Source of the DNA: an archaeon
GTDB taxonomy: Archaea > Asgardarchaeota > Thorarchaeia > Thorarchaeales > Thorarchaeaceae
Direction of reading: 5' to 3'
DNA length: 64,000 nt
NCBI GenBank assembly: GCA_024275415.1
Contig: JAJRZD010000034.1
Coordinates: forward strand, 16,849-80,848
Of this stretch, positions 2,393 to 54,042 are shown piece after piece. A program made the position numbers and the translations under genes. How positions within the stretch are numbered: the stretch's first letter is position 1; every line of letters begins with the position of its first letter. The notes under the pieces are model-generated. The model ran no database searches and was not told the origin of the DNA. It saw nothing but the letters and a program-made list of their open reading frames with translations.

Positions 2393-2432
2393 GTACAGCG
2401 TGAATTGTTTTATAGTAAAGTCATATTCCTAG

Positions 2433-5092: not shown

Positions 5093-5188
5093 GTTATCTC
5101 ACTCAACATTCTGGTCGCTAGTACGCTCTTTCATCCCACGATAGTCTTAAAAGCAGACCGCCAAAGCAGACCATCTGAGGTATAAAAT

Positions 5189-5605: not shown

Positions 5606-5632
5606 GGTACACTTGCATCCTGCATGTACCTC
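5604..5632 (+). terminator. Hairpin after the 138-aa ORF
   Basis: GAGGTACA...TGTACCTC 8-bp stem overlapping the stop codon. Confidence 0.35.
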
Positions 5633-5681
5633 ACCATGTTCCTATCTACGAATCCGATTGGGACTGACTTCTGATGCTAAT

Positions 5682-6467
5682 TCACTCTAGGAATGAAAAC
5701 TCGAACTTTCTCTCATCCTGAAGATACTTGAGCATATCCTGAGCTATTCTTAGTTTGAGTTCCTTTCGAGGAGATGCGAGAAAGTGATCTGTGTACCCTG
5801 GTTTCGACCACTTCCCGACAACGTTACCAAAGTCCATTCCTGCAAGAATGATCCTTTTAGGTGAATAATGGGATATGATGAAACAAGCTCTGTCCCCATC
5901 CGTGAACCCTCCCCACAAGAACACATTGTGCAGAGGTTCCACTTGCGTACTCCCTAGAACATGGACCATCTCTGGGGCCAGACGTGACACAACGTCCATG
6001 TTGTCACCATGAGCATGTACAATGGGGATTGCACCAGCATCTACAGCAGATAAGATGTCCCGAGTATTCCCGTCAAGGTCTGTTACGACGAACTGGCAAT
6101 CCATTCCGGCATCGTTCAATGCTGACACCGCCCCATCTGCTGCGATGCGAACTGCCTCTCTGATAGGCTTTCTATCCATCACAATATCTAGATGGCGCCC
6201 TAACGAAGGACCGCTTCCAAAAACGACCACATCTTTCCCTCGGATAGTCGTTGCAAGATGATGCAAGAGTGGTTCTGGATTCGAGTCTGTTAGTATCTCA
6301 CTCAATAACTCGGCAGCCCTATAGTCGCATTGGACATCAATTTGTAACTTTCTGACAATGTCAAAGTAGAGTGGTTCCCACTCACTCCACTTCACGATGA
6401 TATTCCTCCCATCATCCCTTACCTCATATAATCTTCTCAATCCTCTTACCAATATCAGAGAGACCAA
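5682..6467 (-). CDS. mptE: 6-hydroxymethyl-7,8-dihydropterin pyrophosphokinase, MptE-like (DUF115)
   Basis: 261 aa; VVFGSGPSL and VTDLDGN motifs; adjacent to DHPS. Confidence 0.8.
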   Translation of the reverse strand: MVSLILVRGLRRLYEVRDDGRNIIVKWSEWEPLYFDIVRKLQIDVQCDYRAAELLSEILTDSNPEPLLHHLATTIRGKDVVVFGSGPSLGRHLDIVMDRKPIREAVRIAADGAVSALNDAGMDCQFVVTDLDGNTRDILSAVDAGAIPIVHAHGDNMDVVSRLAPEMVHVLGSTQVEPLHNVFLWGGFTDGDRACFIISHYSPKRIILAGMDFGNVVGKWSKPGYTDHFLASPRKELKLRIAQDMLKYLQDERKFEFSFLE

Positions 6468-7611
6468 AATAGGTCATCATTTTTATCTTGCCCACAAGCC
6501 CCCTTATCTGCCGGTCTGTCCCCATTATCAACATGTCAGTCTTTTCAATGGCATGGTCAATGGTATCATAATGATATGCTGCATCTCCTCCGAGTGCAAG
6601 CATCTCCTGCTTTATTATCAATGCAGCTGGAGCCGATAACCCTCGCAGGACTATCTGGTTCATGACTCCCTTTTGAGATAACTCGTGTCGTATCTCACCC
6701 CCTACGCCAATCTTCTCAAGCAAAAGCTCAACCTCATGCCTATCTGACAGCGCAAGAACCTCAATCTGTCCGTCATAAACGGTGTTAACACTAAGAGCCT
6801 CTCCAACCTTTGACGCGATACATGCCTCTGCAACATCATGTGCACGTATCACATCTACTCCCTTCATGACCGCAATGGACGTAACGGCAACCGTGCCAGT
6901 AAGCCGCTTCTCCGGATTAGGTTCCCCCAAAAGGGCTCCGATGAATGCCTTCCGTGAAACTCCTACTAGGATGGGCCTTCCGAAGATATGAAATCGAGTC
7001 AATCTCCGAAGAATGTCAAAATCAACCTCTGGGGGTTTGCCAAAGCCGATTCCTGGATCCAAAATTACCTTCTCTAACTCTATCCTATTGCGCTTCGCAA
7101 TCGCTATGCTTTCCTCTAATGATGCATATGATGCGTTAGCTGAAGAACACCCATCAGGACAGTTGGACATCAGGACAACAGGTATCGCTCTCTCTGCAAT
7201 GAGTTTCGCCATTTCTGAATCCCCTTTGAGCCCTGACACATCATTCACAATGTCTGCTCCCATATCAAGAGCAATCTCAGCAACGGTGGATGAAGTCGTA
7301 TCGATCGAGATTGGGAGGCTTGTTTCTTTACGAATGATTCCCATTGCAAAAGACACCCTCTCCAACTCTTTCTCCTCTTCCACTTTCGTGGTTCCGTAGA
7401 CTCCTGATGGGGCAGTCGACGCCCCTCCGATATCGATTATGGTCGCTCCCTGAGATTCCATTGTCCGGACGCAATTCCGTAAGGATTCTTCATCCCCAAA
7501 TACAGATCTCTGGTAGAACGATTCTGGCGATAGGTTGATGACTCCCATGACTCTTACTGGGTTGTCACCGCCAATTGCCAGCCCCTTGATGGTCATTGCA
7601 TCTCTCCGCAT
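6424..7611 (-). CDS. folP: Dihydropteroate synthase
   Basis: VMGVINLSPESFYQ, IDIGGASTAPSG, ILDPGIGFGKP motifs; start placed at MRRDAMTIKG. Confidence 0.9.
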   Translation of the reverse strand: MRRDAMTIKGLAIGGDNPVRVMGVINLSPESFYQRSVFGDEESLRNCVRTMESQGATIIDIGGASTAPSGVYGTTKVEEEKELERVSFAMGIIRKETSLPISIDTTSSTVAEIALDMGADIVNDVSGLKGDSEMAKLIAERAIPVVLMSNCPDGCSSANASYASLEESIAIAKRNRIELEKVILDPGIGFGKPPEVDFDILRRLTRFHIFGRPILVGVSRKAFIGALLGEPNPEKRLTGTVAVTSIAVMKGVDVIRAHDVAEACIASKVGEALSVNTVYDGQIEVLALSDRHEVELLLEKIGVGGEIRHELSQKGVMNQIVLRGLSAPAALIIKQEMLALGGDAAYHYDTIDHAIEKTDMLIMGTDRQIRGLVGKIKMMTYFGLSDIGKRIEKII

Positions 7612-7702
7612 CTGGGATTCCCCGCTGGCATTGACCCCATGGAAGGAAATAAAACATAGCTCTATTTGGCAAGCTCGCCCAAAACCTAGGAGGCAGTATC
7701 TC

Positions 7703-8845
7703 ATGAACGGAGAACTACAACGCACCCACTTGTATGATTGGCACAAGCAACACGGCGATCTCGTCCCCTTCGGCGGTTGGGAGATGCCTGTCCGCTACTC
7801 TGACATCCGCGAGGAACACATGGCTGTACGCAATTCAGTAGGATTGTTTGACACTTCACATATGACTCGCTACGTCATCTCTGGTTCACAAGCCGTAGAT
7901 TTTCTCCAACGAGTGACGACGAACAACGTGCGCAAGTTGGCGATTAATGGGGGTCATTACTCAACGTGCCTTAACGAGAAAGGCGGGGTACGGGATGACC
8001 TCATGTTGTATAGGATTGGTGAGGCTGAGTTCATCTGGGTGACGAATGCTGCGAACGGGCCGAAGATACATGCGCATCTTCTCAATCATGCTAAAGATTA
8101 TGATGTCACCATAACCGACAGATCCAGAGATATTGTGATGATTGCGGTTCAAGGCCCCAATGCAATGCCTCTTCTTTCAAAGATGGCTGGGAAACAGATA
8201 GATTACGGTCGTTTCACATGTAACCCCGTGAGGCTGGCAGGATATGATACCTATTTGTGCAGAACCGGCTATACTGGTGAGGACGGTGGTGAGATTCTTC
8301 TCTTGGACACTCCCTATGGGGACGAGGGCAATGCAAAGGCAATAGGCTTCTGGGAGGAGATACTACGCGAGGGAGATGAATTCGGGATACACCCCTGTGG
8401 TCTTGGTGCACGTGACTCGACCCGCCTTGAGGCCGGGTTCGTGCTGTACGGGCATGAGCTGAACGAGGAAACATCACCAATTGAGGCAGCGATACCTTAT
8501 GCGGTGAAGCTTAAGGTCGAGCCCCACTACATCGGCTATGATACTGTGTACAGGCATAAGAAAGAAGGAGTTTCAAAGAAACGGATTGGGTTCGTAATGA
8601 TTGACAGAGGAATTCCTAGAGAAGAGTATCCCATTCTCCTCGATGGGACTCAAATAGGGGTCACCACTAGCGGTGGACTCTCTCCAGTCCTGAAGACAGG
8701 GATTGGGATGGGATATGTGCCCCCTGATACGGTAAAAGAAGGGGACATCATCGAGATTGACATAAAGGGAAGGATTCGGAAGGCAAAGGTCAAGAAGTGG
8801 CCCTTTTATGACCCCGACGAGTATGGTGCAACAAGGTCGCAATGA
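7703..8845 (+). CDS. gcvT: Aminomethyltransferase (glycine cleavage T protein)
   Basis: MNGELQRTHLYDWHKQHGDLVPFGGWEMPVRYSDIREEH...GLFDTSHM; GYTGEDGGEIL. Confidence 0.95.
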   Translation: MNGELQRTHLYDWHKQHGDLVPFGGWEMPVRYSDIREEHMAVRNSVGLFDTSHMTRYVISGSQAVDFLQRVTTNNVRKLAINGGHYSTCLNEKGGVRDDLMLYRIGEAEFIWVTNAANGPKIHAHLLNHAKDYDVTITDRSRDIVMIAVQGPNAMPLLSKMAGKQIDYGRFTCNPVRLAGYDTYLCRTGYTGEDGGEILLLDTPYGDEGNAKAIGFWEEILREGDEFGIHPCGLGARDSTRLEAGFVLYGHELNEETSPIEAAIPYAVKLKVEPHYIGYDTVYRHKKEGVSKKRIGFVMIDRGIPREEYPILLDGTQIGVTTSGGLSPVLKTGIGMGYVPPDTVKEGDIIEIDIKGRIRKAKVKKWPFYDPDEYGATRSQ

Positions 8846-8899
8846 CCAAAGAAAGAATTCATTAGGAGCATATGACCTGCACTCAGATGGTTGATAATC

Positions 8900-9289
8900 A
8901 TGACCGAGATACCTAGCGATTTGAAGTATAGCCGAGAGCATGAGTGGGTTAAGGTCGAGAATGACATCGTCATAGTTGGGATTACCGACTACGCTCAGAA
9001 TTCACTTCATGAGATCACATACGTGGAGATAAATGAGGTGGGTACTACCCTTGAAGCAAACCAGGAATGCGGTCTTGTTGAATCCATGAAGGCATCTTCT
9101 GACATTTTCACCCCCTTGGCTGGTGAGATAGTGGAAGTCAACTCGAAGTTGGAGGATTCCCCGGAGCTGGTCAATGAATCCCCCTATGGTGAAGGATGGA
9201 TGTTTAAGATCAAGCCATCGAATCTGGATGCCGATCTCGCTGCTCTCATGGATTCAGACGCATACCGCGAGTATATCGAGTCCCTATAA
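8900..9289 (+). CDS. gcvH: Glycine cleavage system H protein
   Basis: YSREHEWVKV...GLVESMKASSDIFTPLAGEIVEVN lipoylation motif. Confidence 0.95.
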   Translation: MTEIPSDLKYSREHEWVKVENDIVIVGITDYAQNSLHEITYVEINEVGTTLEANQECGLVESMKASSDIFTPLAGEIVEVNSKLEDSPELVNESPYGEGWMFKIKPSNLDADLAALMDSDAYREYIESL

Positions 9290-9452
9290 TGGGCCCTCTC
9301 CCATTGAGAGATACTCATCTCTCAATCTCTCTTTCTTTATCGCCAATGCCCCTCCTGTGTATTAGTTCAATAATCCCACAATGCGTAACCTTTAAAGAGA
9401 ATCAGAAAATTGCTCGGTCTGACGTTGAGTCAGAACGGAGAGAGCACTCTGT

Positions 9453-12215
9453 ATGTCAACATTCAGTAAGTTCAAGAGATCCGCCGGACGATTCCTTCGG
9501 CAGATCTTTCATAGACCAAAGGCGAAGATCTCACGAGGTTCAGTCCTCATAATAATGGCAATGGCTCTGATATTCTTTGCAGCTCTTATCTTGCGCTTGG
9601 AACCGCTTATCAACTCGCAACCAATCGTGCGGGCATTTGACCCGTGGTTTCAGCTGAAAGTAACAGAGTATGTGGCAGAGAATGGGTACATGTCCTTCTT
9701 CAACTGGTATGACTATTCAACATGGGTTCCGTATGGCCGGGACATGACCTCTACCAGTTATATTGGCGTTCCATTCACCAGTGCCTTCTTCTACTGGGTC
9801 GCCAACAATCTTGGGATTGAAGTGTCAGTGCTCACTGTTTCTCTAGTTCTGCCAGCAATAATGGGCGCGCTGACGACAGTCGTTGCGTTCTACCTTGGAC
9901 GTGAGGTTTCAAACAATACAGTGGGCATGCTTACTGCGCTGTTCTTGGCTTTCATGCCTGCATTCATCCAACGCACGGTCGCTGGATTCTATGATAATGA
10001 AGCAATTGGAGTCTTTGCAATAGTACTTACGTTATACCTCTTCACACGAAGCCTGAAGAGAGGTTCTGCTCTCTCAGGGATCGGAGGCGGCCTTGCATTA
10101 GCATATCTTCTGGCATCATGGGGTGCTGGAGATTTCATGCTTGGCTTACTGTCTCTCTATGGGTTCTTCATGCTGATTGGTGGTAGATACAGCCATCGAC
10201 TGCTCACTTCGTATACCATTACAATCTCCTTGGGGATATTTCTCGGAGTACTTGTCCCTAGAAACGGGTTCGGAACCCTTACCTCCATGACTTACCTAGC
10301 AGCGATTGGTGTTGGTGGACTACTCGCCTTATTTGAGATATGGCAGAGAATTGGAAAGTACCGCGCGACAACGGCCTCGGTACTCGCGCCACATATGAGG
10401 TCTATCGTTCTCGGTCTAATTGCTCCAATTATCGGAATTGTGGGTTACTCTGTCTATGTATCCAGCACAGAGCTTGAGATTGTCACAACAACATCCAACC
10501 CAATCACATTTATTGGCGGAAAATTCACGAGTGTCATCAATCCATTCTTTAGACTTGACCAACGGATTTTCGCTTCAGTAGCTGAGCATCTACCAAGTCC
10601 ATGGGCAAGTTTCTATCAGACTCTACTGGTGCTGATTCTTTTCTTCCCATTGGGCTTGTATTTTGCCTATAGACGCGGCAGGGATGAGGACTGGCTCATT
10701 CTCCTTTTCGGTGCCACGGCCGTTTATTTCACTGGCAGCATGATCAGACTGGCTCTGATACTTGCACCTGCTGCGGCAATACTTGCGGCAATCGCCGTGA
10801 ACGGCATCCTCGTGCCTTTCGCAAAAATTGTCAAACAGCAATCAGTGTTTGAACGCAGACGGTTCCGGATGAGTTCGTCCCTGACATCAGAACATGCCAT
10901 TACGGCATTCGCATTTGTCGGACTCCTGTTGTCAGTGAATGTCGTACTAGGTGTCGTATATGTCACCCAAGGAGTGGGTCCGCCGGAGTTTGCACCAGCT
11001 GAGATCACATCACAAGGGCAAGTAACTGATTGGCAAAGTGCAATGACCTATATTCGGAACGTCTTGCCAGACAGTGCCACGATTGCAAGCTGGTGGGACT
11101 ACGGGTACTGGATCAATGGCGCTTCTGGGGCTAAGACAATCGTTGATAACGCGACGTTCAACAGCACGCAGATAGCTTTAATGGGATATGCGTTGATGTC
11201 GCTCAATCTCACCGAGTCACTACGCACCCTCAGTCAGTGGAACACAACCCATGTTCTTGTGTACTGGGGACACAGAAGTGGGTACTTTGGTGGTGATGAT
11301 GGTAAATGGCCATGGATGGTTCGAATCGCAGAGGATAATCTTGGATCCGATATGATTGATGATACAACATATCTGGGTGATAATCCTGCTACACCAGACA
11401 CAGAGGAAACCGAGTACACCCTTGATGCGTTCTTCCAGTCCACCCTCTACAAGCTTATGCTTTATGACGAGCCAGCTGACCAGACCGAAGCCCAATCAAT
11501 GGGTCTCTCTGATACACGACAGCAGCTCGATAATATCTACTGGCAGGACAGCGACTCACGGTGGGTTTCGAATATTCCCTCTGACCTCTATGGTGCGTTC
11601 AACCTCGAGTTCATCAGCTATTCATACGGTACAGTCAAACTGTATAGCATCGATTACACCATGCTAGAACAATACAACAACAAGACTGCAGCAGACTGGG
11701 TTCCTGATTTAGATGTTCTAGATGATGTGAGTCTCGATGGTAACCTTTCCACTTCCGAATTAGCGTTCTCCAGTTATGATCTCGTATTTGGTGGTGGATA
11801 TGATGCCAAGGTCTACACACGATCGAACTCCACTCATATTTACTATGGGATTCAGATGGACAACTACACCATAGGTGAGGACGCCTTCGGTCTACAGATA
11901 TCTCCAATAGACTCGACCGATACTGGTGACCTCAAACTTGTCAACTACGAGGACCAAGACTATTTCGACGGTTACATCGATTACTATGGGGATTGGACTG
12001 AGGATGCCAGTGGATCCGACTCGTCAGAGTATGCAACAGGTGAGCGCGTCATCGAGTTTCTCCTCCCACTGTCATCAGATGACTCACACGATCTGAACAT
12101 GACCGGTGGGATGAACTACCAGATCCGCTTCCTGTTTTGGAACAATGCGAACACAGGTAATCCGACCCTTGATAGTGACTGGACAATCATCTGGGTACCT
12201 GTCGAACTCCATTAG
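9453..12215 (+). CDS. aglB: Oligosaccharyltransferase AglB/STT3
   Basis: 920 aa, multi-TM N-terminus, WWDYGYWI motif. Confidence 0.95.
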   Translation: MSTFSKFKRSAGRFLRQIFHRPKAKISRGSVLIIMAMALIFFAALILRLEPLINSQPIVRAFDPWFQLKVTEYVAENGYMSFFNWYDYSTWVPYGRDMTSTSYIGVPFTSAFFYWVANNLGIEVSVLTVSLVLPAIMGALTTVVAFYLGREVSNNTVGMLTALFLAFMPAFIQRTVAGFYDNEAIGVFAIVLTLYLFTRSLKRGSALSGIGGGLALAYLLASWGAGDFMLGLLSLYGFFMLIGGRYSHRLLTSYTITISLGIFLGVLVPRNGFGTLTSMTYLAAIGVGGLLALFEIWQRIGKYRATTASVLAPHMRSIVLGLIAPIIGIVGYSVYVSSTELEIVTTTSNPITFIGGKFTSVINPFFRLDQRIFASVAEHLPSPWASFYQTLLVLILFFPLGLYFAYRRGRDEDWLILLFGATAVYFTGSMIRLALILAPAAAILAAIAVNGILVPFAKIVKQQSVFERRRFRMSSSLTSEHAITAFAFVGLLLSVNVVLGVVYVTQGVGPPEFAPAEITSQGQVTDWQSAMTYIRNVLPDSATIASWWDYGYWINGASGAKTIVDNATFNSTQIALMGYALMSLNLTESLRTLSQWNTTHVLVYWGHRSGYFGGDDGKWPWMVRIAEDNLGSDMIDDTTYLGDNPATPDTEETEYTLDAFFQSTLYKLMLYDEPADQTEAQSMGLSDTRQQLDNIYWQDSDSRWVSNIPSDLYGAFNLEFISYSYGTVKLYSIDYTMLEQYNNKTAADWVPDLDVLDDVSLDGNLSTSELAFSSYDLVFGGGYDAKVYTRSNSTHIYYGIQMDNYTIGEDAFGLQISPIDSTDTGDLKLVNYEDQDYFDGYIDYYGDWTEDASGSDSSEYATGERVIEFLLPLSSDDSHDLNMTGGMNYQIRFLFWNNANTGNPTLDSDWTIIWVPVELH

Positions 12216-12229
12216 TTCAAATGGGGAAT

Positions 12230-12275
12230 GTGGCTGTCAGTACTGACAGTCACACTTCTGTTCTTTTTTAAAAAA
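12230..12275 (+). terminator. Terminator between aglB and nop10
   Basis: Perfect 16-bp palindrome CTGTCAGTACTGACAG flanked by GTG/CAC, then TTCTTTTTT. Confidence 0.6.
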
Positions 12276-12328
12276 TCAAAATAGATGAAAAATAAGCGTC
12301 TGCAATGAAGGTGAAGGAGTATGTCTAT

Positions 12329-12502
12329 TCACTCGATAGGCCTTCTAGCCAGTTTCTTTGCTTTCCTTCGATATTTCCCGTATTTGTCCTGCGGAGAGAA
12401 TTTCGGGGGCGCAGGGCTTCTAACAGCATTGCCGCACTTCGGGCATGCTGTATCATTGAGAGTATATGATGCGCAGCTTGTGCATTTGTACAGATATGGC
12501 AT
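12329..12502 (-). CDS. nop10: H/ACA snoRNP component Nop10
   Basis: 57 aa, absent from the ORF track: MPYLYKCTSCASYTLNDTACPKCGNAVRSPAPPKFSPQDKYGKYRRKAKKLARRPIE. Confidence 0.93.
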   Translation of the reverse strand: MPYLYKCTSCASYTLNDTACPKCGNAVRSPAPPKFSPQDKYGKYRRKAKKLARRPIE

Positions 12503-12511
12503 CATGAACCC

Positions 12512-13306
12512 CTATTTTCTGTTGAATACGATCGTCCCTGCGTCTTTCTCAATAATCTTTGTGACAGTTCCAAGAACCTTTGATAGAACCTCTTCTGCTT
12601 CTTTATAATCAGGTGAAACGATTCGTAGTTTGTACCGTGGCGAACCCAGAGTGTAGATCTCAACTGTTGACTTCTCCTGAGCTTTTCCAATTTCCAGGCC
12701 TTCGGAGAGCGCTTTCCTTATAGTTCCAACGCCCTTCACTCCCGGAACTGTGATTGTCATCTCTCCATCTATTTCGACAGATGGGATTTCAATCCGCACC
12801 TTCGCCATCTCGGCAAGCTGCTCCTTGAGTTCTTTCGGGATGTCCACTTCATCAAAGACTCTGACATTGCCGTCAGCAGCTTGTTCAAGCCCTTTGTAGA
12901 TCTCACCGAAGTAGTCCTCCAAAGGCCATCCTACTTTCTCATAGATCTCTTCAAGGCTCATGTTGTTCTCCTTTGCGAGAAGTTCGAGCAGCTTCTCTGC
13001 CTTCTGTGCTCGTTTCCATTCGTTGTTCTTTGCCCGTCTTGCCTCGGTGGATACCCGCCTGAGGGAGCAGTCGATGTGTCCTTTCTGTTCATCAACTTGT
13101 AGGACCTTGATAACGACTCGCTGGTTCTCGTGGATGTGGTTTCTGATGTTTCGCACCCAAGTGCTAGAAATCTCAGATATGTGGATGAATCCCTCCTTGT
13201 TCCCATATTCTGGGAGTACTACATATGCTCCATAGGGTGCGACTTTGGTAGCTACGGCTACTGCATACTCGTCTGGAGTAGGCCATTTTGCACGCTTTCT
13301 GACCAT
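12512..13306 (-). CDS. Translation initiation factor aIF2 alpha subunit
   Basis: S1 domain start (YGAYVVLPEYGNKEGFIHISEIS); next to Nop10 and S27e. Confidence 0.93.
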   Translation of the reverse strand: MVRKRAKWPTPDEYAVAVATKVAPYGAYVVLPEYGNKEGFIHISEISSTWVRNIRNHIHENQRVVIKVLQVDEQKGHIDCSLRRVSTEARRAKNNEWKRAQKAEKLLELLAKENNMSLEEIYEKVGWPLEDYFGEIYKGLEQAADGNVRVFDEVDIPKELKEQLAEMAKVRIEIPSVEIDGEMTITVPGVKGVGTIRKALSEGLEIGKAQEKSTVEIYTLGSPRYKLRIVSPDYKEAEEVLSKVLGTVTKIIEKDAGTIVFNRK

Positions 13307-39005: not shown

Positions 39006-39584
39006 TTGAGAGTGCTAGTCTTTGGAGACGCTCACATTCCAAGCAGGCGCGATTCAATCCCTGAAGCCTTCTACTCTCGTATATCTGACACCCCATATGA
39101 CCTTGCTCTTGTCACAGGCGATCTCACTCGCGAACATGATATGCGCAAGGCACTGCCGCCATTACCGCGAACCATAATTGTTCGGGGGAATATGGACTAC
39201 TATTCAAGTGAATCTCGACACCACGAACAATTGCGGTTGGGTGCATTTGACGTATTGCTCATACATGGCACCCAGCTCCGTCCACGGGGTAATATCAAAC
39301 AGCTCTGGGAGATTGCAACCACCATTGGTGCGGACATCGGGATACATGGGCATACACATACTGCATCAATTGATTTGTTCAAAGAGAAGCTTTTCTTGAA
39401 TCCTGGAACCATATCCGGTGCTACTGGGGGGTGGGTTGGTCGGCAAGAGGCAAGTTTCATCGAGCTGGACATAGATGATGCCAAGATCAGTGTCACACTC
39501 TTCAAGAGTGACTGGAATGTCCAGAAGACCTCTACACTTGCTTTCACCATAGAGGATGGTTGTGTGAAGCGGTCATCTTCCTAG
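39006..39584 (+). CDS. YfcE/MJ0936-type phosphodiesterase
   Basis: FGDAHIPSR, TGDLTREHD, VRGNMDYYS, IHGHTHTASID. Confidence 0.9.
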   Translation: MRVLVFGDAHIPSRRDSIPEAFYSRISDTPYDLALVTGDLTREHDMRKALPPLPRTIIVRGNMDYYSSESRHHEQLRLGAFDVLLIHGTQLRPRGNIKQLWEIATTIGADIGIHGHTHTASIDLFKEKLFLNPGTISGATGGWVGRQEASFIELDIDDAKISVTLFKSDWNVQKTSTLAFTIEDGCVKRSSS

Positions 39585-40132
39585 CACTCGTTCTCGATGT
39601 CCTGCCACGGGTCAGGACTCAGCAATCGCAGGTATACTGCCTTGACAATCGTACTAGATAGGTTTAATGTCGCATTGAGCACCTTGTCTGGATTTCCAGT
39701 CAGCCCTTCCTCGGCATATGCCTTCTTGATCTCCTCCTCTGGCCAGATATCTCTAGTCCATCTGATAGAACGCAAGAATGCTTCTGTGGTCTTTACTACA
39801 TCCGGATGCTTTCCTTCCTTGACGCGTCCCAAGGACAACAGGCAGCTTGTTCTCAGGCATTCAGATATGATAGACTGTAAGGAATCTGAGAGCTTGTGAT
39901 TTGAGGCACATGCAATTCCGATACCCATCAATAACATCCGTATCCTGTCAAGGAGAACCCCGACATGTACGTTGACAATCCTCTTAGTCCTCATAGATGC
40001 CTTCCAATCATCATATCGCTCATTCACCCTCTCAAGCTCCACAATATGGTGTGAAAGCCTGCCAAGCTTGCGTGAGGGTACCAAAGGACACCAGACTTGC
40101 AACATCTCATCACTGGCATCCTTGGTCTGCAT
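39581..40132 (-). CDS. Hypothetical helical protein
   Basis: 183-aa ORF convergent with the phosphodiesterase. Confidence 0.5.
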   Translation of the reverse strand: MQTKDASDEMLQVWCPLVPSRKLGRLSHHIVELERVNERYDDWKASMRTKRIVNVHVGVLLDRIRMLLMGIGIACASNHKLSDSLQSIISECLRTSCLLSLGRVKEGKHPDVVKTTEAFLRSIRWTRDIWPEEEIKKAYAEEGLTGNPDKVLNATLNLSSTIVKAVYLRLLSPDPWQDIENEC

Positions 40133-40761: not shown

Positions 40762-41706
40762 CTATTTCCTGAGCTTTAACCAGATAGCGACGATTGCCAC
40801 TACTGCCACTCCACCAACAACCATCAGTGTGGTTGTCGAATCCAATGGCAGGGTATCTGCTGATGCGATTCCCAACACAGGGTCGTAGATCAACGTGTCA
40901 TTCCCGAAGTACTCAAATGCTAAATATACTGACTCTCCTCTTTCACCGCCCATGCCTTCACCGTAGCTGGCTCTGACTTGAAGGGAGTTCTGAGACTCCA
41001 GTGCGAGGGCTTCCTCCTCATAATGCATGTATGCATTGTCGAAGTTGAACTTAGTTCCTACCTTGTGGAACCCTCTAGGATTCCTCTCGGGCATCCCTTC
41101 GCCATGACCGCTCTCAGTGATGGTGAATTGTAGGACTAGGATTGAACTATCATATGTCCAGTTCCAGCCATCGATAATGACATCGAACTTCACTTCTCCC
41201 GGGTTGTCCATGTATAGATGGACTCGGATTTGAACCATGACATCAAATGCCACCATGTCAGGTATCTGCCAATTTTCGCCCATGGGCCGTGGGTCGAACT
41301 CTGTGGTCGTGGTGAAGTTGAAGTGGACAGCTGTAATGTTATCGCCTTCACTCTCGGTTTCAAAACCGCTGAACTCCCAGCCCGATGTTGGGAGCATGAA
41401 ACGAGCTCCTATGACCTCGTCCACCCCGCGAGTGAAAACGTTGTCCCCGTCCGTGTCATTGGCCTCGAAAAGACTCACAAAGAGCATGTGATAGTCTATG
41501 GATTCGTTATTCGGATCCCACCAGAAAAAGTGTGGCACCTGATTTGCACCGACCACCTTGACGCTCAATTCGTCAGTGCTTAGAGTGACGACGCCTGCAG
41601 AATGGTTGTACTGCAATCCGTTGCCCTGTGCGGAAGCTGCCGGAATGCTTATGGCCAACATGCCGACCGCCAGCAGCGAGAGTATAATTTTCATGTGATT
41701 ATTCAT
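40762..41706 (-). CDS. Secreted/anchored surface protein, unknown function
   Basis: N-terminal signal peptide (IILSLLAVGMLAISIPAASA), C-terminal TM plus KLRK. Confidence 0.65.
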   Translation of the reverse strand: MNNHMKIILSLLAVGMLAISIPAASAQGNGLQYNHSAGVVTLSTDELSVKVVGANQVPHFFWWDPNNESIDYHMLFVSLFEANDTDGDNVFTRGVDEVIGARFMLPTSGWEFSGFETESEGDNITAVHFNFTTTTEFDPRPMGENWQIPDMVAFDVMVQIRVHLYMDNPGEVKFDVIIDGWNWTYDSSILVLQFTITESGHGEGMPERNPRGFHKVGTKFNFDNAYMHYEEEALALESQNSLQVRASYGEGMGGERGESVYLAFEYFGNDTLIYDPVLGIASADTLPLDSTTTLMVVGGVAVVAIVAIWLKLRK

Positions 41707-43404: not shown

Positions 43405-43521
43405 CTATTCCACTTTGTTTCCATAGTGTGTATCTAGTTTGGGGCCAAACTGGTGGCACTTCTATCTACTGCGCAACCACTCTTGGACAGCCCGTCGCTT
43501 CCTGATATCATTGGGAGGGCA

Positions 43522-46500
43522 TTATATGGCCCAACGAATCGTGTCCTCAAGCGAGTCAGTAGTGGCAATCCAGCAGACTGAAACCCTGTCAGTTCTTGGA
43601 TAGTAAGATACACGTCTAGGAAAGAAGGAAACAGCAAAGCCCAATCCTTCGGCAAGGCGGCACTCGTCTCTGATGAGGTTATTGATTGACATATTCACGA
43701 CGTTAAGGAGGTTTGTGACAGTTTCGGCAATGGCAGGGTCGTTATCTTCCTGCAGTTCCTTAAGCTTATTGATAGACAGGGTGGACTTTGGGATCAAGCC
43801 TCTGATGGTCTTCCCCTCTTTCTTTATGAGTTCAATCTCCTCTTGTCCTATCATCGACTCCATATCATAGTGCTCCTTCTCCATATTGACATGGATGGCA
43901 TGGCTACGAGACCACATGAATCTCCCACGCCCGAAGCTTCCATCTTCGGGAATAAGCTCTTCAAGATAGGCGCGTTTGGACTCGTCTGACCAATCAACAT
44001 ACGTGGGAGGAAGTCCTGGGTTGTTGATGGTTTTGTTACCGGGAGTCATCCCGTCATCCAAAAGAACCAATCCAATCTGGCAATGGATATGAATGTCATA
44101 TTTGCCTTTGCGGTATTTAGGTTCGAGCAAAATAGTCCCAAACTCACTAATGGTATCCTGTACTCTCAGAATCCTTCCCATGTGTGCCTCGTTATACGCA
44201 ATTCGGCCAGTCGGCCATAGATGACAATCACTGATGACCACCGCCGTAAGCCTTGCCTTTAATATTTCAAGTTTTTTTCCTTCAGGAAACCGTGGATTCT
44301 TAATTCCTGCTCGTCCGCTTATTCCTGCTATCTTGACTACTAGTCCTTCGAGATTCGACAATCTTCTTCGGGAGCCATCAAGATACATCCTGATGATTTT
44401 CCCTTCGAGGCGAGTGCTGTAAACGTCGAGAGGTCGTTTCCTTGCGGGTTGTCCCTCGTCGTTATCCATGAACTGTCTGACAATCTCGTTGATGCGTGGC
44501 AAGTCCCTGCGTAGAGTCCCATTGAGTCCTAGTGTCTTCCGCAGTTGGTCGATTATCCTGACGACGTCGCCTCGATGTCTGAAATAGAAGAACTGATCCT
44601 CATAAGGTCGCACGAGTTCATCAGGTCTGTGCATGGGCACCCATGCGTACATCGTGTTCTCGACCAGCGCCAAACGAGCTCGCACATGGACAAGTCCGAG
44701 AGCAGATGAAAGGGAATCCTCTATCCGTTGTTTGTTTGCGCGAAGGTATTGCTCGATCTGCCTGATCCTACCGGTTTCAAGTTCAGGATACAAGATTGCA
44801 CGATAAAACCTCTCATTGACAGTAGGACTGTTTCTTATCATCTCTGCAATCGCAGAAACTAGATTCATCTGAGTGAGTTCTTTCGCGTTTTTGATGGTTT
44901 CAAGGGCATCGTGGACGAGATGTTTCTCTATCGTGTGGGCGGTTAGCGACTCAAAGAGGTCTAGACTTGTGGTGTCATACATTCTTTCGAGGGTGGCTCT
45001 GTCTATCTCTGGGTTGCTCTTCTGCCACCCACTGATGATACATTCTTCCTCATGCTTTCTGAGGTCTTTGATCTGAGCTGGTTCGATGGCATTCCACGAA
45101 TTGGTCACAAATCCCTTGCTGACGCCGTATTTTACCGCAATCTCATCGCGTTTCATGGAATGATCATCTTTGATTTGAAAGTACAGGTTGCTGAACATCT
45201 TCCTTTCCTCAAAGTCCCACCGTTCGCGCTCAGCAGGATGTTTCTTAATCAACCTCTCTACATCTTCCATAGACTCGATTCTGATATCAGGTGGTCCTCC
45301 ATGAACTGTTTCGAACATCCGCCTGAGTTCTCTATCCTGCAACCTCTCTATCAAGTCCGGGGGTTCGACGTTCTTCTTGTCTTTCAGTCTGCAATACTCT
45401 AAAGCATCCTTGTATTGCTCATCAAATCCTTTCTCCGCTTTCAAATCATAGTTCTGCTCAATCGCGCGCTCAAGATTCTTTACACAATGGATTTTCCAAG
45501 GCATAGCTTCGAGTCCTGTTCCCCCCACTGACTTGGAGATAATTCCTTTATCCTTTGACCGGGATACGTACTGACCTATCCCGTTCTGGTCCTGTTTCAT
45601 ATTCCTTATTCGAGAGGGGATGTCCCACCCCCGAAGCCAAAGTACAATCCTGTGGGAGCTGATTTTGTATTTCAGTGCTAGATTATGTATCTGATTCCGG
45701 TCGTAGAGTTCGACACCTTCTCGCACCCGGATTCTAATCTCATCTCTTCTACGCATCCCAATGATATCCAACCATGCCTGTAGATACCCAAGTTCGTCAG
45801 AGAATATCATGTCATCGAAAGCTACTCGGATTTCTTCCAATGACCTAGGATACCGTTGACTCTCGTACTCTCTCGCTGCCTGCATTAACCGATAGCGAAG
45901 CTCCCGCCGTACGATGTCATACACCCCTTCAGGAATCGACTCAAGATTAGCATACTCTTGGACCAGTTCGGGATTCAGCCCAATCTCCTCAGCCAGCTCC
46001 TTGACCTTCGCTTCGCTTTCAACACCTGATGTTTCCTCCGACAGGTGAACCCTGATGGTGATGAACTTGGAAACCAAGTTATCCTCTATCAGATGAGCTA
46101 CCTCATGCTTCTGTAGGATGTCCTCCCAGTCCTCTTGTGACTGTAACTCCGCGATGATCTGACGGATGTGCCGCTCCCTGTCATCTTCTGATAGAGAGTC
46201 CTCTATCTTATCAATCAACTCCCTGACCTTGCGCTCAGCCGCTTCCTCGGACGACTCGGGGATGCAGGAAGCAAGGATATATTCATGGTGCCTTCTTCGT
46301 TCCTGTTTCTTTTTTTCTTCTTGATTATCGAGTTCACTCTCTTCCTGTCGCATCGAATCACTCTGTTCGTACTCGCCCCTTTTCTCAATATTATGCCCCT
46401 TGGTGGTAGTCTGTTTTTTCTGCTCCCTTAGATGAGGGTGTTCGATGTCCACTTCTCCTGTATGATCATGTGGTTCTTCATTTGGATGATGTGTTGTGCC

Positions 46501-47253
46501 TATCCCTTCCACCGCTTCTTTGGAGTGATTATGTCCCTGCTGTTCGGTATCCCCCGTCAGTTTATCCTTTTTTGTAGGCATTTCGTTCTCAAGTACGGAC
46601 TCCGACTTTGTTTTACACGTTCTCGGCTCTCCCTCTTGTACTAAATACAACTGCCCAGTTCCCCCATCATAGGATGAGGTCTTCTCCTCAGTATGGGACT
46701 GTCCCGTGTCCGAGTCCGTGTTGTGTTCGTCCTTTTCCTCTTCAGACTCCTGCTCCTTTTTCTCTGCGTCCTCTGAGAGGGACTCCTCCATCTCGGATAC
46801 ATAGACCCCGCGCCACCGTTCCCTGACCTGCTCAGGGTCGATCCCGAACTCCTCCATCACATCGATGACACGCTGCTCGAACTCATCAAGAAGATCCTTG
46901 TCAGCCGTCCGTTCTCGTTCCTCTCGGGCTTTCTCCCGTCCAATCCCGATCCTTTGTCCCTCTTCCTTCGCCTCTAGCCCCTTCACCGCCTCACGGCCCC
47001 TCTTGCTGTCAGACACAGGTTCCTCGTTCACACGTTGGCCGACCCTCGCTCTTCCCCCATCACCACCATGCTCTTCTGCCTCGTGCCCATCATTGTCCTT
47101 TTGCTCTACTACTTCCTTCTCAGCCACCCTTCGTTCATACTTCTCCCGGAACTCCCTGACACGCCTGCTGATCTCATACTGGTATTCCTCGTATTCGCGG
47201 TCCTCTCGCCACTCGTCGTATTCCCTGCGGCGACTCCGCTCCCCTCCCTCCAT
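43522..47253 (-). CDS. Large accessory protein: disordered N-terminus, HTH-like region, possible LAGLIDADG-like C-terminal region
   Basis: 1243 aa; about 330 aa of E/K/R-rich sequence, HTH-like KYGVSKGFVTNSWNAI and ALKYKISSHRIVLWLRG, then AVVISDCHLWPTGRIAYNEAHMGRILRVQDTISEFG and KRAYLEELIPEDGSFGRGRFMWSRSHAI. Confidence 0.6.
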   Translation of the reverse strand: MEGGERSRRREYDEWREDREYEEYQYEISRRVREFREKYERRVAEKEVVEQKDNDGHEAEEHGGDGGRARVGQRVNEEPVSDSKRGREAVKGLEAKEEGQRIGIGREKAREERERTADKDLLDEFEQRVIDVMEEFGIDPEQVRERWRGVYVSEMEESLSEDAEKKEQESEEEKDEHNTDSDTGQSHTEEKTSSYDGGTGQLYLVQEGEPRTCKTKSESVLENEMPTKKDKLTGDTEQQGHNHSKEAVEGIGTTHHPNEEPHDHTGEVDIEHPHLREQKKQTTTKGHNIEKRGEYEQSDSMRQEESELDNQEEKKKQERRRHHEYILASCIPESSEEAAERKVRELIDKIEDSLSEDDRERHIRQIIAELQSQEDWEDILQKHEVAHLIEDNLVSKFITIRVHLSEETSGVESEAKVKELAEEIGLNPELVQEYANLESIPEGVYDIVRRELRYRLMQAAREYESQRYPRSLEEIRVAFDDMIFSDELGYLQAWLDIIGMRRRDEIRIRVREGVELYDRNQIHNLALKYKISSHRIVLWLRGWDIPSRIRNMKQDQNGIGQYVSRSKDKGIISKSVGGTGLEAMPWKIHCVKNLERAIEQNYDLKAEKGFDEQYKDALEYCRLKDKKNVEPPDLIERLQDRELRRMFETVHGGPPDIRIESMEDVERLIKKHPAERERWDFEERKMFSNLYFQIKDDHSMKRDEIAVKYGVSKGFVTNSWNAIEPAQIKDLRKHEEECIISGWQKSNPEIDRATLERMYDTTSLDLFESLTAHTIEKHLVHDALETIKNAKELTQMNLVSAIAEMIRNSPTVNERFYRAILYPELETGRIRQIEQYLRANKQRIEDSLSSALGLVHVRARLALVENTMYAWVPMHRPDELVRPYEDQFFYFRHRGDVVRIIDQLRKTLGLNGTLRRDLPRINEIVRQFMDNDEGQPARKRPLDVYSTRLEGKIIRMYLDGSRRRLSNLEGLVVKIAGISGRAGIKNPRFPEGKKLEILKARLTAVVISDCHLWPTGRIAYNEAHMGRILRVQDTISEFGTILLEPKYRKGKYDIHIHCQIGLVLLDDGMTPGNKTINNPGLPPTYVDWSDESKRAYLEELIPEDGSFGRGRFMWSRSHAIHVNMEKEHYDMESMIGQEEIELIKKEGKTIRGLIPKSTLSINKLKELQEDNDPAIAETVTNLLNVVNMSINNLIRDECRLAEGLGFAVSFFPRRVSYYPRTDRVSVCWIATTDSLEDTIRWAI
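43671..43866. repeat. 196-bp direct repeat copy A
   Basis: Two mismatches against copy B by eye. Confidence 0.9.
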
Positions 47254-47262
47254 CAGCCATCA

Positions 47263-50200
47263 CTACCTGTGGAACTCCAGGAGCCTTGAGATGACCTCTT
47301 TCGAGATGATCCCGTGCTCATTGGGGATGACCGTCCCGATCACCTGGGTCGCCACTTCGATGGTACGGGGGAGCCCTGATGCGCCCACGGCATCGTAGAC
47401 GAGCCCCGCGAAGGCGGCCAAGGCATCTCCTGAGCCTTCATCCAGGAACCTCTGTGCCGCTTCCATGAACTCAGGGTTTGTCAGGTACGCTCCTGTTGGT
47501 GCAATACTTGCCTTTCCCTGTCCTGGGACGTCCGTCCTATCCCTCGTGGCCAACCGTTTCATGAGCCCCTCGGGAAGGGGTTCATGTCGGGCAAGCTGCG
47601 GGTTCGCATCGTAGAAGGCGGACATGTGCGCTCGTATCGCATCACTCCCCAGATGTTCGGTATCTATCTGGTCATGGAACAAGAACGAGAGGGGGATCAT
47701 CTGCACGTTCTTGGGCTCCCGTGCCTCCTCGAGGTACACTACCGCTTCGCCCCGCTCCATCCCCCGGATGTGCTGGATCTGGGCATCGCTGCACCCGATA
47801 TGGCTCCCCAGCATGGCCATCGTTTCCCTGTCTTCCTTCAGTCGATGGAGGACCGCGTTGACAGGGAGCTTCACCACCTCGCTGGCAAGGGCACTGGGCA
47901 ACTGGTCGATGATGACCAGCCCGAGCCCTGTCCCGCCAAGGACCCTGAGCATCTCGACGAATGCATGGACTGCCTGTTGTCGTGCAGCGGAGTTCGCCTC
48001 ACCGTCAAGACTGTTTCTCCCCAGGACATAGTGCGCCTCCTCGAGGACCAGCAGGTTCTCCACCCGCTTGGACGGGTTGGCAAGCTTGTACTCGCTTATT
48101 GCTGCCGTCAGCATCCCCATGAGCAGGGCCGTGTCACTCTGGGACAATGCGTCCATCTCGATGATGGTGGGATGGGAGAGGAGTCCAGGTATCGAGATGC
48201 CCTCTGAGGTGTTGAACATCCCGACCAAAGAGGGCTTCCGCAGGAGCGACCTTACTCTGGCTACCAGTGCCCCGTAGAAGTTCTTGTTCACCTCCTCGTC
48301 GTAGTTCAGCTCCTTGCCGAAGGTGAGGACTCCCTCAACGATGTCCTCAAAGAGGATGGGGTGTCCCCGTTCGCCGGACTCGATGTCCCAGCCGCAGTTG
48401 GCATAGGTTGAGTACACCCAGTCCTCGACGTGCATGGAGATGACCCTGTCATTGGGCAACCAGAGGGTGAGGACCTGTACTACCCTGTCCACCCACTTCC
48501 GCAGTGGGACCTTTGGCGGGGGCTCCCAGAAGTTCAGCTTGAACCCGGCTACAGTATCATCTCCCGCCGTGAAGACCCGGATGCCGGGGAAGACCCTCAT
48601 GAGGGTTCTCCACTCGTACGCCTTCGAGGGGACCAGCACCACAGGGTTCAGCCCCATGCTGATGGCCTGCCCGATGAGGCTCATTGCGCTCCAGGTCTTC
48701 CCTGAGCGGGTGGTCCCAAGGACGAGGAGGTGCCCGTCGTAGTACTGGGTGCCAGAGGTCAGGAACTTCCCTGATAGCACCGTCCCGTTCTCGTCTATCG
48801 GGTTGCCATAGTAGAGGGACCTTGCCCGCCCCTTCCACCGCACGCCCGTCGGGACGTCACATCTGAAGACCTTCCGTTCCTCCTGTGGGCGAGCCTCTTT
48901 AGCAGTGGTCTGGGTCGAGGTGGAGAACCGTTCGCGAGCGGTCACCCTGATCCCCATGTCTGTCTGCGGGAGGACGAGATAGTTCGCCACCTCCCGCAGG
49001 GTCAGTCGTGTGGGGGAACCTATGGGGAACCCGGACAGCAGCCTGTCAAGGTCCTTCTTACGATGGAACGTCCTGACCTTGAAGGGGTCCTGTTCCTGCC
49101 CGGGAGCGACGGAACCCATGATGGCGCTTGCCAGCCTACGGGCAGCCGTATCCGCGCACTCCAGAGTACTGTCGCAAGATGCCACCATGACCGTGGTGTT
49201 GCACAGGTCCCGTTCGTTGAGGCGTTCCAGCTCCCGCGCCAGTCGTGATGCCTTGGCAAGTTCCTTCGGGTCCACTACCCGCTTTGATTCCTGCCTGTCA
49301 CCGTGAAGAAGGCTCGACCGTTCCCGGGTCACGGTGGTCTCTGAGGACTGGACTGCCTTCTTGTACCTGTCCTGCAGGGACGCGACCTCCCTAGTACTGA
49401 CGGTGGTCGGTTCCACGAACACCTGTACCATGGCATTGTCCAGTCCCTGCAGCACGCCAATGGGGGCGGACATGGGTGCCGTGACCTGCTCCTCGCCAGT
49501 GATAGGAGTAGGGATCCCTGAGACCTCCACAGCCACGCAGGCCATGTCCTCTTGAAGGCACAACCCTTCATACCCTTTGACCTTTGTGAGCCTGAACCCC
49601 TTGAGATTGCTCAGGAGGGTGTCTTGCATCAACACCATCTGCACCCCAAGACGCACAGAGTCCTTCGCCCACGTCAGGAACATGACCCTGGTGACAGAGT
49701 CCTTCCGTAAGAACAACAGGCTGAAGGGGACATCACTGGAGCCCAGGTGACGGACGATGTTGAGGAAGCTTGCTGACACGTCCTGTCGGGTCTCCTTCGC
49801 GTCAGCAGGGAACGCATAGTCCCTTGGGATCTCCGTGACCTCGAAGCCCATGATGGGAGGTGGTGCCCGTGAGGGGCGTTTTGGGACACGGAGCGGTGAG
49901 ATGGTCTTCCTGGACGTCGTGACAAGCCCGGGCAAGAGAACCCTCTTTGAACGGGATGTCCGTGAGTCCCAGAGGCAGGTGACGAGGGCCGCCCCGATGC
50001 CGACCACCGCAATAAGCAGGTTCGCAGCATTACCGACCAGCGGTATCGGGATGAAAGAGAGGACTACTACAAGCCCCACCAAGATGGCCCCTGCGGCGAT
50101 CATGGCCCCTGCGAGCAACGAGTAGAGCCATACCCGGGGCTTTCGCCCGAAGAGCAATGCTGTTGCGCCGATGAAGAAGGTGACCGTTGCAAGGAGGGAG

Positions 50201-50346
50201 CTGGGGCTCCCTATCGAGGAAGGGACGAACCTCACAAGGTATAGTAACCACAGGACACAATAGGACGGTATGAAGGTGAGGAGCACCAGGAGGACGAGCT
50301 TGAAGAGCAAGACCACCAGTGAGTTAGGACGATCCGAATCTGTCAA
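47263..50346 (-). CDS. Membrane-anchored HerA/VirB4-like ATPase
   Basis: 1027 aa; N-terminal TM segments; Walker A LGTTRSGKTWSA, Walker B LLVLEEAHYVLGRN, C-terminal VLHRLKEDRETMAMLG...GMERGEAVVYL. Confidence 0.85.
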   Translation of the reverse strand: MTDSDRPNSLVVLLFKLVLLVLLTFIPSYCVLWLLYLVRFVPSSIGSPSSLLATVTFFIGATALLFGRKPRVWLYSLLAGAMIAAGAILVGLVVVLSFIPIPLVGNAANLLIAVVGIGAALVTCLWDSRTSRSKRVLLPGLVTTSRKTISPLRVPKRPSRAPPPIMGFEVTEIPRDYAFPADAKETRQDVSASFLNIVRHLGSSDVPFSLLFLRKDSVTRVMFLTWAKDSVRLGVQMVLMQDTLLSNLKGFRLTKVKGYEGLCLQEDMACVAVEVSGIPTPITGEEQVTAPMSAPIGVLQGLDNAMVQVFVEPTTVSTREVASLQDRYKKAVQSSETTVTRERSSLLHGDRQESKRVVDPKELAKASRLARELERLNERDLCNTTVMVASCDSTLECADTAARRLASAIMGSVAPGQEQDPFKVRTFHRKKDLDRLLSGFPIGSPTRLTLREVANYLVLPQTDMGIRVTARERFSTSTQTTAKEARPQEERKVFRCDVPTGVRWKGRARSLYYGNPIDENGTVLSGKFLTSGTQYYDGHLLVLGTTRSGKTWSAMSLIGQAISMGLNPVVLVPSKAYEWRTLMRVFPGIRVFTAGDDTVAGFKLNFWEPPPKVPLRKWVDRVVQVLTLWLPNDRVISMHVEDWVYSTYANCGWDIESGERGHPILFEDIVEGVLTFGKELNYDEEVNKNFYGALVARVRSLLRKPSLVGMFNTSEGISIPGLLSHPTIIEMDALSQSDTALLMGMLTAAISEYKLANPSKRVENLLVLEEAHYVLGRNSLDGEANSAARQQAVHAFVEMLRVLGGTGLGLVIIDQLPSALASEVVKLPVNAVLHRLKEDRETMAMLGSHIGCSDAQIQHIRGMERGEAVVYLEEAREPKNVQMIPLSFLFHDQIDTEHLGSDAIRAHMSAFYDANPQLARHEPLPEGLMKRLATRDRTDVPGQGKASIAPTGAYLTNPEFMEAAQRFLDEGSGDALAAFAGLVYDAVGASGLPRTIEVATQVIGTVIPNEHGIISKEVISRLLEFHR

Positions 50347-50633: not shown

Positions 50634-51044
50634 CTAAGCGACTACTCTCCAGCCGTACTCATCAGTGATGAGGTTATTGATTGACATATTCACGACGTTA
50701 AGGAGGTTTGTGACAGTTTCAGCAATGGCAGGGTCGTTATCTTCCTGCAGTTCCTTAAGCCTATTGATAGACAGGGTGGACTTTGGGATCAAGCCTCTGA
50801 TGGTCTTCCCCTCTTTCTTTATGAGTTCAATCTCCTCTTGTCCTATCATCGACTCCATATCGGGAAGGTTTTCAGCTGTATCATAGAGATTCCGAGAAGC
50901 TGGTGAGGCGCTACAAGTGCGGGACAAGAGGTCTGGTGACACCAGATGAAAGATAGAATTGATGCTCAAGGCGGTACACAAAACGGAACATGCGACCTTC
51001 CTCTTATGGTTCGATTCACGAGTTTTGCAACAGATTTCGCTCAC
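50634..51044 (-). pseudogene. Fragment duplicating an internal piece of the 1243-aa gene
   Basis: DMESMIGQEEIELIKKEGKTIRGLIPKSTLSINRLKELQEDNDPAIAETVTNLLNVVNMSINNLI matches the 1243-aa protein except for one residue. Confidence 0.75.
50666..50861. repeat. 196-bp direct repeat copy B
   Basis: 194/196 identical to copy A by eye, same orientation, about 7 kb apart. Confidence 0.9.
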
Positions 51045-52858: not shown

Positions 52859-53263
52859 TCATTTCTTCTGAGCCAATGCTATGACATGCCTGTCAAGATC
52901 CGTACCATAAGCAACTCTATCTCCCCAATCCCGCTCTACCACATTACTGACGAGCCGTCCTCCTGCCTGTACCAGTCTTTCTATGGCGCGTTCAAGATTC
53001 TTCACGAACAGGTATAACTCACATCTGGGAATGCCGTTTCCCCGCGAAGGATGCGGCACAGATTCGCCCAGTATCTTTGCTATACCAGTTTCGGGCATCA
53101 GTCCCAAGACGAATGAATTGTCTATCTCAAACATAGTCATTCCCTCGACATCAACTGAAGGCTCTTTCTGCAGAAAAGTGCGATAGAATTCCCTACTTCT
53201 CTCTTGACTTTCCACAAAGAAGATTATCATCGCTTTGACATACCATATCACTATCCCTGTCAT
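52859..53263 (-). CDS. VOC/glyoxalase-family protein
   Basis: IFFVESQERSREFYRTFLQKEPSVDVEGMTMFEI...GDRVAYGTDLDRHVIALAQ. Confidence 0.8.
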   Translation of the reverse strand: MTGIVIWYVKAMIIFFVESQERSREFYRTFLQKEPSVDVEGMTMFEIDNSFVLGLMPETGIAKILGESVPHPSRGNGIPRCELYLFVKNLERAIERLVQAGGRLVSNVVERDWGDRVAYGTDLDRHVIALAQKK

Positions 53264-54042
53264 CCGAATATGAACTCAAAGATATTGTCAAGCATCATCA
53301 TGACCACAAAGCCAATCATGGTTCCCCAAGTCGCTGCTCGTGCATTTCCTGCAGCATGGCTTTCAGGCAACATTTCCTCACCCACTACGAATATCATGGC
53401 ACCGGCTGCAAAGGCAAGTCCATATGGCAACAGGAACGATGCGAAGGAAACTATCGATACCCCGATTAGCCCTCCGATAGGCTCAACTAGCCCTGTGAGA
53501 AGTGCCAATCCCGCAGCATATCTTCTAGAATATCCCTCTCGTATCATTGGCGCTGCGACAGCCATCCCCTCAGGGATGTTCTGGAGACCTATTGCTACCG
53601 CAACTGCAAGCCCTTCTGCGATGTCACCAGACCCAAAGGACACACCTACCGCCAGTCCTTCTGGGATATTGTGAATAGTGATTGCTAGAACCAGCAACCA
53701 GACTTTTGCCATCGCGGATGACGGTCCTTCGCGCCCTTTCCCAAAGTGCTCATGGGGGATGTATTTGTCCGCAAGGTGGATGAACACTCCGCCCAACACA
53801 AAGCCGAACGACACTACTGTTATCACCCCGACCCAATCCACGATTAACTCAAGGGCCGGTACAAGTAGACTGAATGCGGAGGCTGCTAGCATGACTCCCG
53901 CTGCCGTCCCAAGCATGATGTCCAGTGTTCTCCGTGAGAAGTTCCCTCCCAGAAGGACGGGTATTGCTCCGATGCCTGTAGCTGTCCCAGCAAGGAGGCT
54001 GGCGAGGATTCCTAACGATATGGGATCTGTGAGCAGCTGCAT
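53260..54042 (-). CDS. ZIP-family metal transporter
   Basis: AITIHNIPEGLAVGVSFG, IGLQNIPEGMAVAAPM. Confidence 0.93.
   Translation of the reverse strand: MQLLTDPISLGILASLLAGTATGIGAIPVLLGGNFSRRTLDIMLGTAAGVMLAASAFSLLVPALELIVDWVGVITVVSFGFVLGGVFIHLADKYIPHEHFGKGREGPSSAMAKVWLLVLAITIHNIPEGLAVGVSFGSGDIAEGLAVAVAIGLQNIPEGMAVAAPMIREGYSRRYAAGLALLTGLVEPIGGLIGVSIVSFASFLLPYGLAFAAGAMIFVVGEEMLPESHAAGNARAATWGTMIGFVVMMMLDNIFEFIFG

Follow-up and report, generated by a model that had tools for sequence, protein, structure and literature searches.

A putative mobile element of Asgard archaea pairing a membrane-anchored HerA/VirB4-like ATPase with a LAGLIDADG endonuclease-like protein

Gene movement is poorly known among the Asgard archaea, the closest known relatives of eukaryotes. 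The described systems closest to the locus reported here are the LAGLIDADG homing endonucleases, the LAGLIDADG-fold protein WhiA, the ATPases CedD/CedB and VirB4, the HerA-nuclease pairs of defence and repair, and the aloposons of Heimdallarchaeum. The locus lies in a stretch of 64,000 nucleotides from an archaeon of the family Thorarchaeaceae (assembly GCA_024275415.1, contig JAJRZD010000034.1, positions 16,849 to 80,848), hereafter called the window. It consists of two adjacent genes, denoted A and P, which encode a transmembrane (TM)-anchored HerA/VirB4-superfamily ATPase and a large protein with helix-turn-helix (HTH)-like segments and a LAGLIDADG endonuclease-like C-terminus. A preliminary description of the window had proposed an undescribed system of this composition, and that proposal holds: no description of the pair was found in the open-access literature. 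Judged from sequence, A-P has the appearance of a mobile DNA element not described before.

P resembles the LAGLIDADG homing endonucleases (PI-SceI, I-DmoI, I-Tsp061I) in its C-terminal fold and paired acidic motif residues, and also in its patchy distribution, horizontal transfer and relics. It differs from them in that it has no recognised intron or intein, carries a charged N-terminus and HTH segments fused to the domain, is partnered by a membrane ATPase and falls below Pfam detection. WhiA, which was among the structural matches, also combines the LAGLIDADG fold with HTH, and its LAGLIDADG domain is not known to be catalytic. It is a bacterial transcription factor (Streptomyces WhiA-RNA polymerase structures), whereas P is larger and keeps both acids. 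Protein A resembles CedD/CedB and VirB4 in having N-terminal TM segments, a middle domain and a HerA/VirB4-like ATPase core. CedD/CedB form a host system of Thermoproteota for which we know of no nuclease partner, and A is far under the NCBIfam CedD equivalog cut-off of 600 bits (25.9 bits for the window protein and 54.9 bits for its relative in locus L060). CedD has TM segments, an N-terminal domain and a HerA/VirB4-like ATPase, and is required for DNA import (PMC11868833). The HerA-NurA, HerA-Sir2 and HerA-DUF4297 pairs place a HerA ATPase beside a nuclease-like protein, as does A-P, but A differs in its TM segments and long middle region, and its partner is a LAGLIDADG protein with HTH segments. 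Aloposons are likewise Asgard mobile elements with giant proteins; they have tandem genes for 3000-6000 residues, a ParA-like ATPase and tRNA integration, and HerA and LAGLIDADG are unmentioned in their description (PMC8813620).

As the preliminary description had it, the two open reading frames (ORFs) are both on the minus strand, separated by 9 nt, with P downstream. They sit between two border genes that are neighbours across the family:
43522-47253, minus strand: gene P, 1243 residues, with a disordered N-terminus, HTH-like segments and a LAGLIDADG endonuclease-like C-terminus (ORF call, homologues, AlphaFold2 (AF2) and Foldseek)
47263-50346, minus strand: gene A, 1027 residues, TTG start, TM-anchored HerA/VirB4-superfamily ATPase (ORF call, profile matches)
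39581-40132, minus strand: left border gene of the insertion hotspot, which adjoins zip where the element is absent (conserved synteny)
53260-54042, minus strand: right border gene, zip (ZIP-like transporter, named by eye), found in 39 of 47 genomes of the family (synteny)

Relatives of P were found in 38 of the 231 genomes of the phylum, draft assemblies searched with a P profile at a threshold of 1e-10. The window's own family accounted for 31, family f10 for 6 and f6 for 1; those relatives that are named belong to Candidatus Thorarchaeota and, in one case, to Hermodarchaeota. In 16 loci from 6 genera and 2 families, A and P were neighbours in the same orientation, separated by -38 to +338 nt (one of these loci has an A that is a 61-residue remnant). 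Selection was purifying in all comparisons made (ratio of nonsynonymous to synonymous substitution, dN/dS, 0.11-0.34, with dS saturated in the C-terminal comparison of L061 and L062). The sixteen pairs and this purifying selection argue that the pairing is not due to chance, and the co-occurrence on which the preliminary description had staked its proposal is a recurrent one.

The pair is conserved, but the system is not strictly one of two genes. P was found without a nearby A in many loci (L053, L069, L070 and L072-L075), and dN/dS in P-only loci was about 0.15-0.22. A third gene of ~200 residues, belonging to one conserved family, follows P in about 15 loci; no credible remnant of it was found beside the window P. 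Downstream of other A genes lie genes for large proteins of another LAGLIDADG type (L081 and L086, PF14528). The partner of A in L065 (1473-7169, 1898 residues) has an unrelated-looking C-terminus of ~1100 residues with no recognisable family, no LAGLIDADG by Pfam and no relative among the loci compared. A-type ATPases also occur in a membrane operon, in which T (~105 residues), S (~195-225 residues) and M (~270-290 residues, hydrophobic) lie upstream of A genes of the L060 type. The order T-S-M-A was also found in G051; G055 has M-A, and a short contig of G025 has T-S-M. The T, S and M proteins scanned had no significant match to Pfam or other families; T-S-M may resemble a VirB2/VirB6 or Ced channel. 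No relaxase was recognised in the flanks read, which were not systematically scanned for one. Membrane-type T-S-M genes were noted upstream of HerA/VirB4-like ATPases in L060, L077, L088, L227, L228 and L229.

The following parts were recognised in P:
46249-47253, minus strand: residues 1-335, charged and probably disordered N-terminus (composition)
45574-46248, minus strand: residues 336-560, a module whose homologues lie within a 2.1-kb ORF of G045 (L028) and a P of G040 (L075)
44929-45498, minus strand: residues 586-775, helical HTH-like repeats (AF2 helices; HTH read by eye from the alignment and from homologues)
43870-44286, minus strand: residues 990-1128, LAGLIDADG domain (AF2, Foldseek, conserved acids)
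44224-44253, minus strand: LAGLIDADG motif 1, RLTAVVISDC, residues 1001-1010, with catalytic-type D1009 (D in 61 of 61 homologues)
43939-43968, minus strand: LAGLIDADG motif 2, YLEELIPEDG, residues 1096-1105, with catalytic-type D1104 (D or E in 61 of 61 homologues)

P had no match in Pfam, NCBIfam or PADLOC, PHROGs gave one insignificant regulator match, and a P profile found nothing relevant among PDB sequences. The AF2 model of residues 586-1243, built from 11 sequences, had a predicted local distance difference test score (pLDDT) of 87 and a predicted template modelling score (pTM) of 0.78. Searched against the PDB with Foldseek, it matched LAGLIDADG homing endonucleases and WhiA (best E 3.1e-5), and a viral structure library agreed. 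The LAGLIDADG-like blocks of the preliminary description are borne out by this predicted fold and by the two acidic residues conserved in the 61 C-terminal sequences, and the predicted structure resembles homing endonucleases rather than a conjugation or replication family. In the model, the C-terminus of P appears to be a LAGLIDADG endonuclease-like domain with an intact-looking active site. The proposed charged, disordered N-terminus also stood, as residues 1-335 contain 21-33% D/E and few hydrophobics. The proposed HTH segments stood in part: HTH was found in homologues (HTH_3, 2e-5 in L089), but the window protein had no significant HTH match in its own sequence.

The features of A were as follows:
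49954-50325, minus strand: residues 8-131, N-terminal TM segments (hydropathy; helices in a low-confidence AF2 model)
48694-48717, minus strand: Walker A, GTTRSGKT, residues 544-551 (G544, G549 and K550 invariant in the alignment)
48031-48054, minus strand: Walker B-like LLVLEEAH, residues 765-772 (E770 and A771 invariant in the alignment)

The TM segments that had been proposed for A agree with hydropathy peaks at residues 5-41, 48-67 and 71-128 and with helices at 8-37, 48-65, 70-97 and 104-131 in an AF2 model of low confidence (pLDDT 42, four sequences), which was too poor for a structure search. The proposed HerA-type core was weakly visible in the window protein by itself (Pfam DUF87, E 0.006) and clear in the family: DUF87 matches were above the cut-off in the relatives L055 and L060, and the family profile matched the solved HerA (4d2i) in the PDB at 6e-12, along with anti-phage HerAs. 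A thus has the FtsK-HerA-type P-loop ATPase core of the HerA/VirB4 superfamily. In NCBIfam, window A matched CedD (3.8e-6) and HerA_antiphage (2.6e-7), and the A of L060 matched CedD at up to 6e-15; by these profile matches, A is distantly related to CedD. The window A has 60% GC and a third-position GC (GC3) of 0.76, in a region of 47-48% GC where host genes have a GC3 of 0.51, which suggests that it was recently acquired.

We compared four-fold-degenerate sites among genomes. Identity of P at these sites was 39-59% among G000, G002, G015 and G007, compared with 23-38%, near saturation, for the host genes X and zip. The P genes of G002 and G015, which are of different genera, shared 81% protein identity and 59% four-fold-site identity, compared with 26-34% four-fold-site identity for host genes; in the P of G024, which is more distant, this excess was not seen. 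As P is more alike between genera at synonymous sites than the host genes are, it was transferred horizontally between them. A and the N- and C-terminal parts of P recombine independently of one another. DNA comparison showed that L056 and L081 match at 91% over A and P up to about residue 680, beyond which they have different C-terminal LAGLIDADG types in different loci, and that L056 and L089 share the locus and the P C-terminus with different A genes.

P genes were found to be intergenic, in conserved hotspots, with no intein or intron context seen. The zip hotspot was empty in L120, L122, L125, L127, L147 and L148, with the border genes 46-682 bp apart and nothing between them. Elsewhere it was occupied by A-P, by P alone, by P relics (L128, L132, L134 and L138, and also L054 and the window) or by unrelated genes. 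Comparison of flanking genes revealed further recurrent sites for P loci, several of them common to different genera. Some P genes were noted between putative ribosomal proteins L23 and L2 or beside LSm or FtsZ genes (names by eye).

An intact-looking active site, horizontal spread, one site in occupied, empty and relic states, and the persistence of P without A are what is expected of a homing-type selfish element. The conserved pairing, the recurrent sites common to different genera, the module swaps (including that between L061 and L062 described below), the distant kinship of A with CedD and the T-S-M genes upstream of some A-type genes also speak for it. We tentatively favour, at a little short of an even chance, the reading that A-P is a mobile selfish homing-type endonuclease module of Thorarchaeota and Hermodarchaeota with a recruited HerA/VirB4-like DNA pump. 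P would be a site-specific LAGLIDADG-fold DNA endonuclease, with HTH segments that lengthen target recognition. It would cut an intergenic site next to conserved genes where the element is absent, and the element would enter as the break is repaired from an occupied copy, by intron-less homing. A would interact with P. As a membrane-anchored pump, together with T, S and M in some loci, it would carry DNA through the membrane and so open new genomes to the nuclease. Among the roles that the preliminary description left open (DNA translocation, mobility or defence), mobility is the best supported, by horizontal P transfer, recurrent sites and swapping.

Several results weigh against the homing reading. 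One site can hold several P clades, and L061 and L062, at the same site, have A proteins with 95% identity and P C-termini with only 46%, an in-situ C-terminal swap. The idea that the C-terminal clade of P fixes the insertion site therefore held only in part: the site is not strictly set by the nuclease. Because the genomes were too diverged for intergenic regions to be aligned, the comparison yielded no cleavage target, no duplication of a target site and no exact junction. P relatives were absent from viral_contigs (searched with one narrow peptide pattern) and from plasmids, so that no free circular or viral form was seen. Most A-P loci are without T-S-M, which occurs only in some relatives.

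A stronger claim, which we regard as rather doubtful, is that these loci represent a class of Asgard mobile element not described before: intergenic homing would be driven by a LAGLIDADG endonuclease with an HTH array, DNA would be moved between cells by a coupled HerA/VirB4-like membrane pump (joined in some loci by extra membrane proteins), and modules would be freely exchanged. If true, the combination would link gene drive-like homing and DNA transfer, which are usually studied apart, and would offer a testable candidate for gene flow among Asgard lineages.

The main rival is defence, in which A-P would be a HerA-nuclease immune pair: P would recognise and cut invading DNA, A would pump or anchor, and C-terminal swaps would change specificity. 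HerA-nuclease pairs are a known defence theme, and horizontal transfer, hotspots and module swapping fit this reading too. A-type proteins match PADLOC HerA models and mad8 (best 4.5e-14, in L060), relatives of A on plasmids have defence-like surroundings in Lactococcus (WYL-dynamin-dynamin-ATPase-HNH near an Abi gene) and Acinetobacter (WYL-ATPase), and the P of L068 adjoins a putative Mrr/STAND NTPase. However, the PADLOC matches of the ATPase are partial and generic, where a HerA defence system combines an ATPase model with a known partner and P matches none. When 130 nonredundant flanking proteins were scanned with PADLOC models (1e-8, no control set), none of the models matched more than 3 of them, and many of the top models looked generic. 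P is often without A yet under selection, and to our knowledge no LAGLIDADG immune effector has been described. We consider defence unlikely.

Alternatively, A (with T, S and M) could be a Ced/Ted-like DNA importer or exporter that serves the host, with P preparing or targeting the DNA and patchiness reflecting frequent loss. The similarity of A to CedD and the role of CedD in DNA import speak for such exchange, but the patchy distribution, the relics, the horizontal transfer and the frequent lack of A beside P make it improbable. We give similarly poor prospects to effector export, through a type IV secretion-like T-S-M-A channel, of P as a modular effector whose N-terminus is conserved and whose C-terminal nuclease can be exchanged, the third gene possibly being its cognate partner. 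Such export would fit C-terminal swapping behind a conserved N-terminus, the existence of the T-S-M-A operon, the third gene after P and the WHH/colicin-type DNase beside the Lactococcus A relative; yet the third gene belongs to a single conserved family and lacks the variability of immunity genes, many P genes are not accompanied by an A, and the combination of a LAGLIDADG nuclease and HTH segments is suited to specific rather than general DNA cleavage. Vertical inheritance of a fast-evolving Thorarchaeota locus, with A-P adjacency and hotspot clustering as conserved synteny, would suit G000 and G002 (one genus), where P (62%) and its neighbour g40762 (64%) at the same locus are similarly diverged, but is very improbable given the lower synonymous divergence of P than of host genes between genera, by which it was already disfavoured, the opposite orientation relative to a common flank in L053 and L060, and the empty sites in several genera.

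The window copy itself may be decaying, as judged from these features, which the preliminary description had not noted:
43462-43521, minus strand: in-frame continuation past the P stop, CPPNDIRKRRAVQEWLRSR, kept in homologues, of which 58 of 61 run on
43657-43866, minus strand: 210-bp direct repeat, copy within the P 3' end (sequence comparison)
50652-50861, minus strand: 210-bp direct repeat, relic copy upstream of A, 97% identical, with a start-to-start spacing of 6995, inside ORF 50634-51044

Because the continuation is kept in homologues, P ends early in the window, 20 codons short of the homologous end. The 210-bp copy upstream of A has sharp edges and may be what remains of an earlier occupant, or may stem from recombination between copies of P; a P fragment also lies upstream of A in G004. 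The first ~185 residues of P share the high GC of A, and the window pair may thus itself be a recent recombinant.

Beside the pair, window positions 40762-41706 encode a 314-residue protein of a secreted-type, multi-copy family (42 of 47 genomes of the window's family, up to 5 matches each), which is in tandem in G002. In L237 (G096:C20), an A-like ATPase (8007-11108, minus strand) is followed by a charged 170-residue ORF and an 1834-residue HTH protein; by eye, the C-terminus of the latter is LAGLIDADG-like and the upstream genes are CRISPR-Cas-like. In L088, a 474-residue protein (11224-12648) with at least four sigma-70 region-4/HTH matches lies near the A gene at the usual position of P. 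The protein adjoining P in L068 (1536-4682, 1048 residues) has weak restriction-endonuclease (Mrr) and AAA/STAND matches, and the upstream side of this P is cut by the contig end. On the Lactococcus plasmid pB26B (L169), positions 124-10629 contain a WYL regulator, two dynamin-like genes, a HerA-type ATPase and a WHH/colicin-type nuclease in succession, with the Abi gene nearby, and look like a defence locus.
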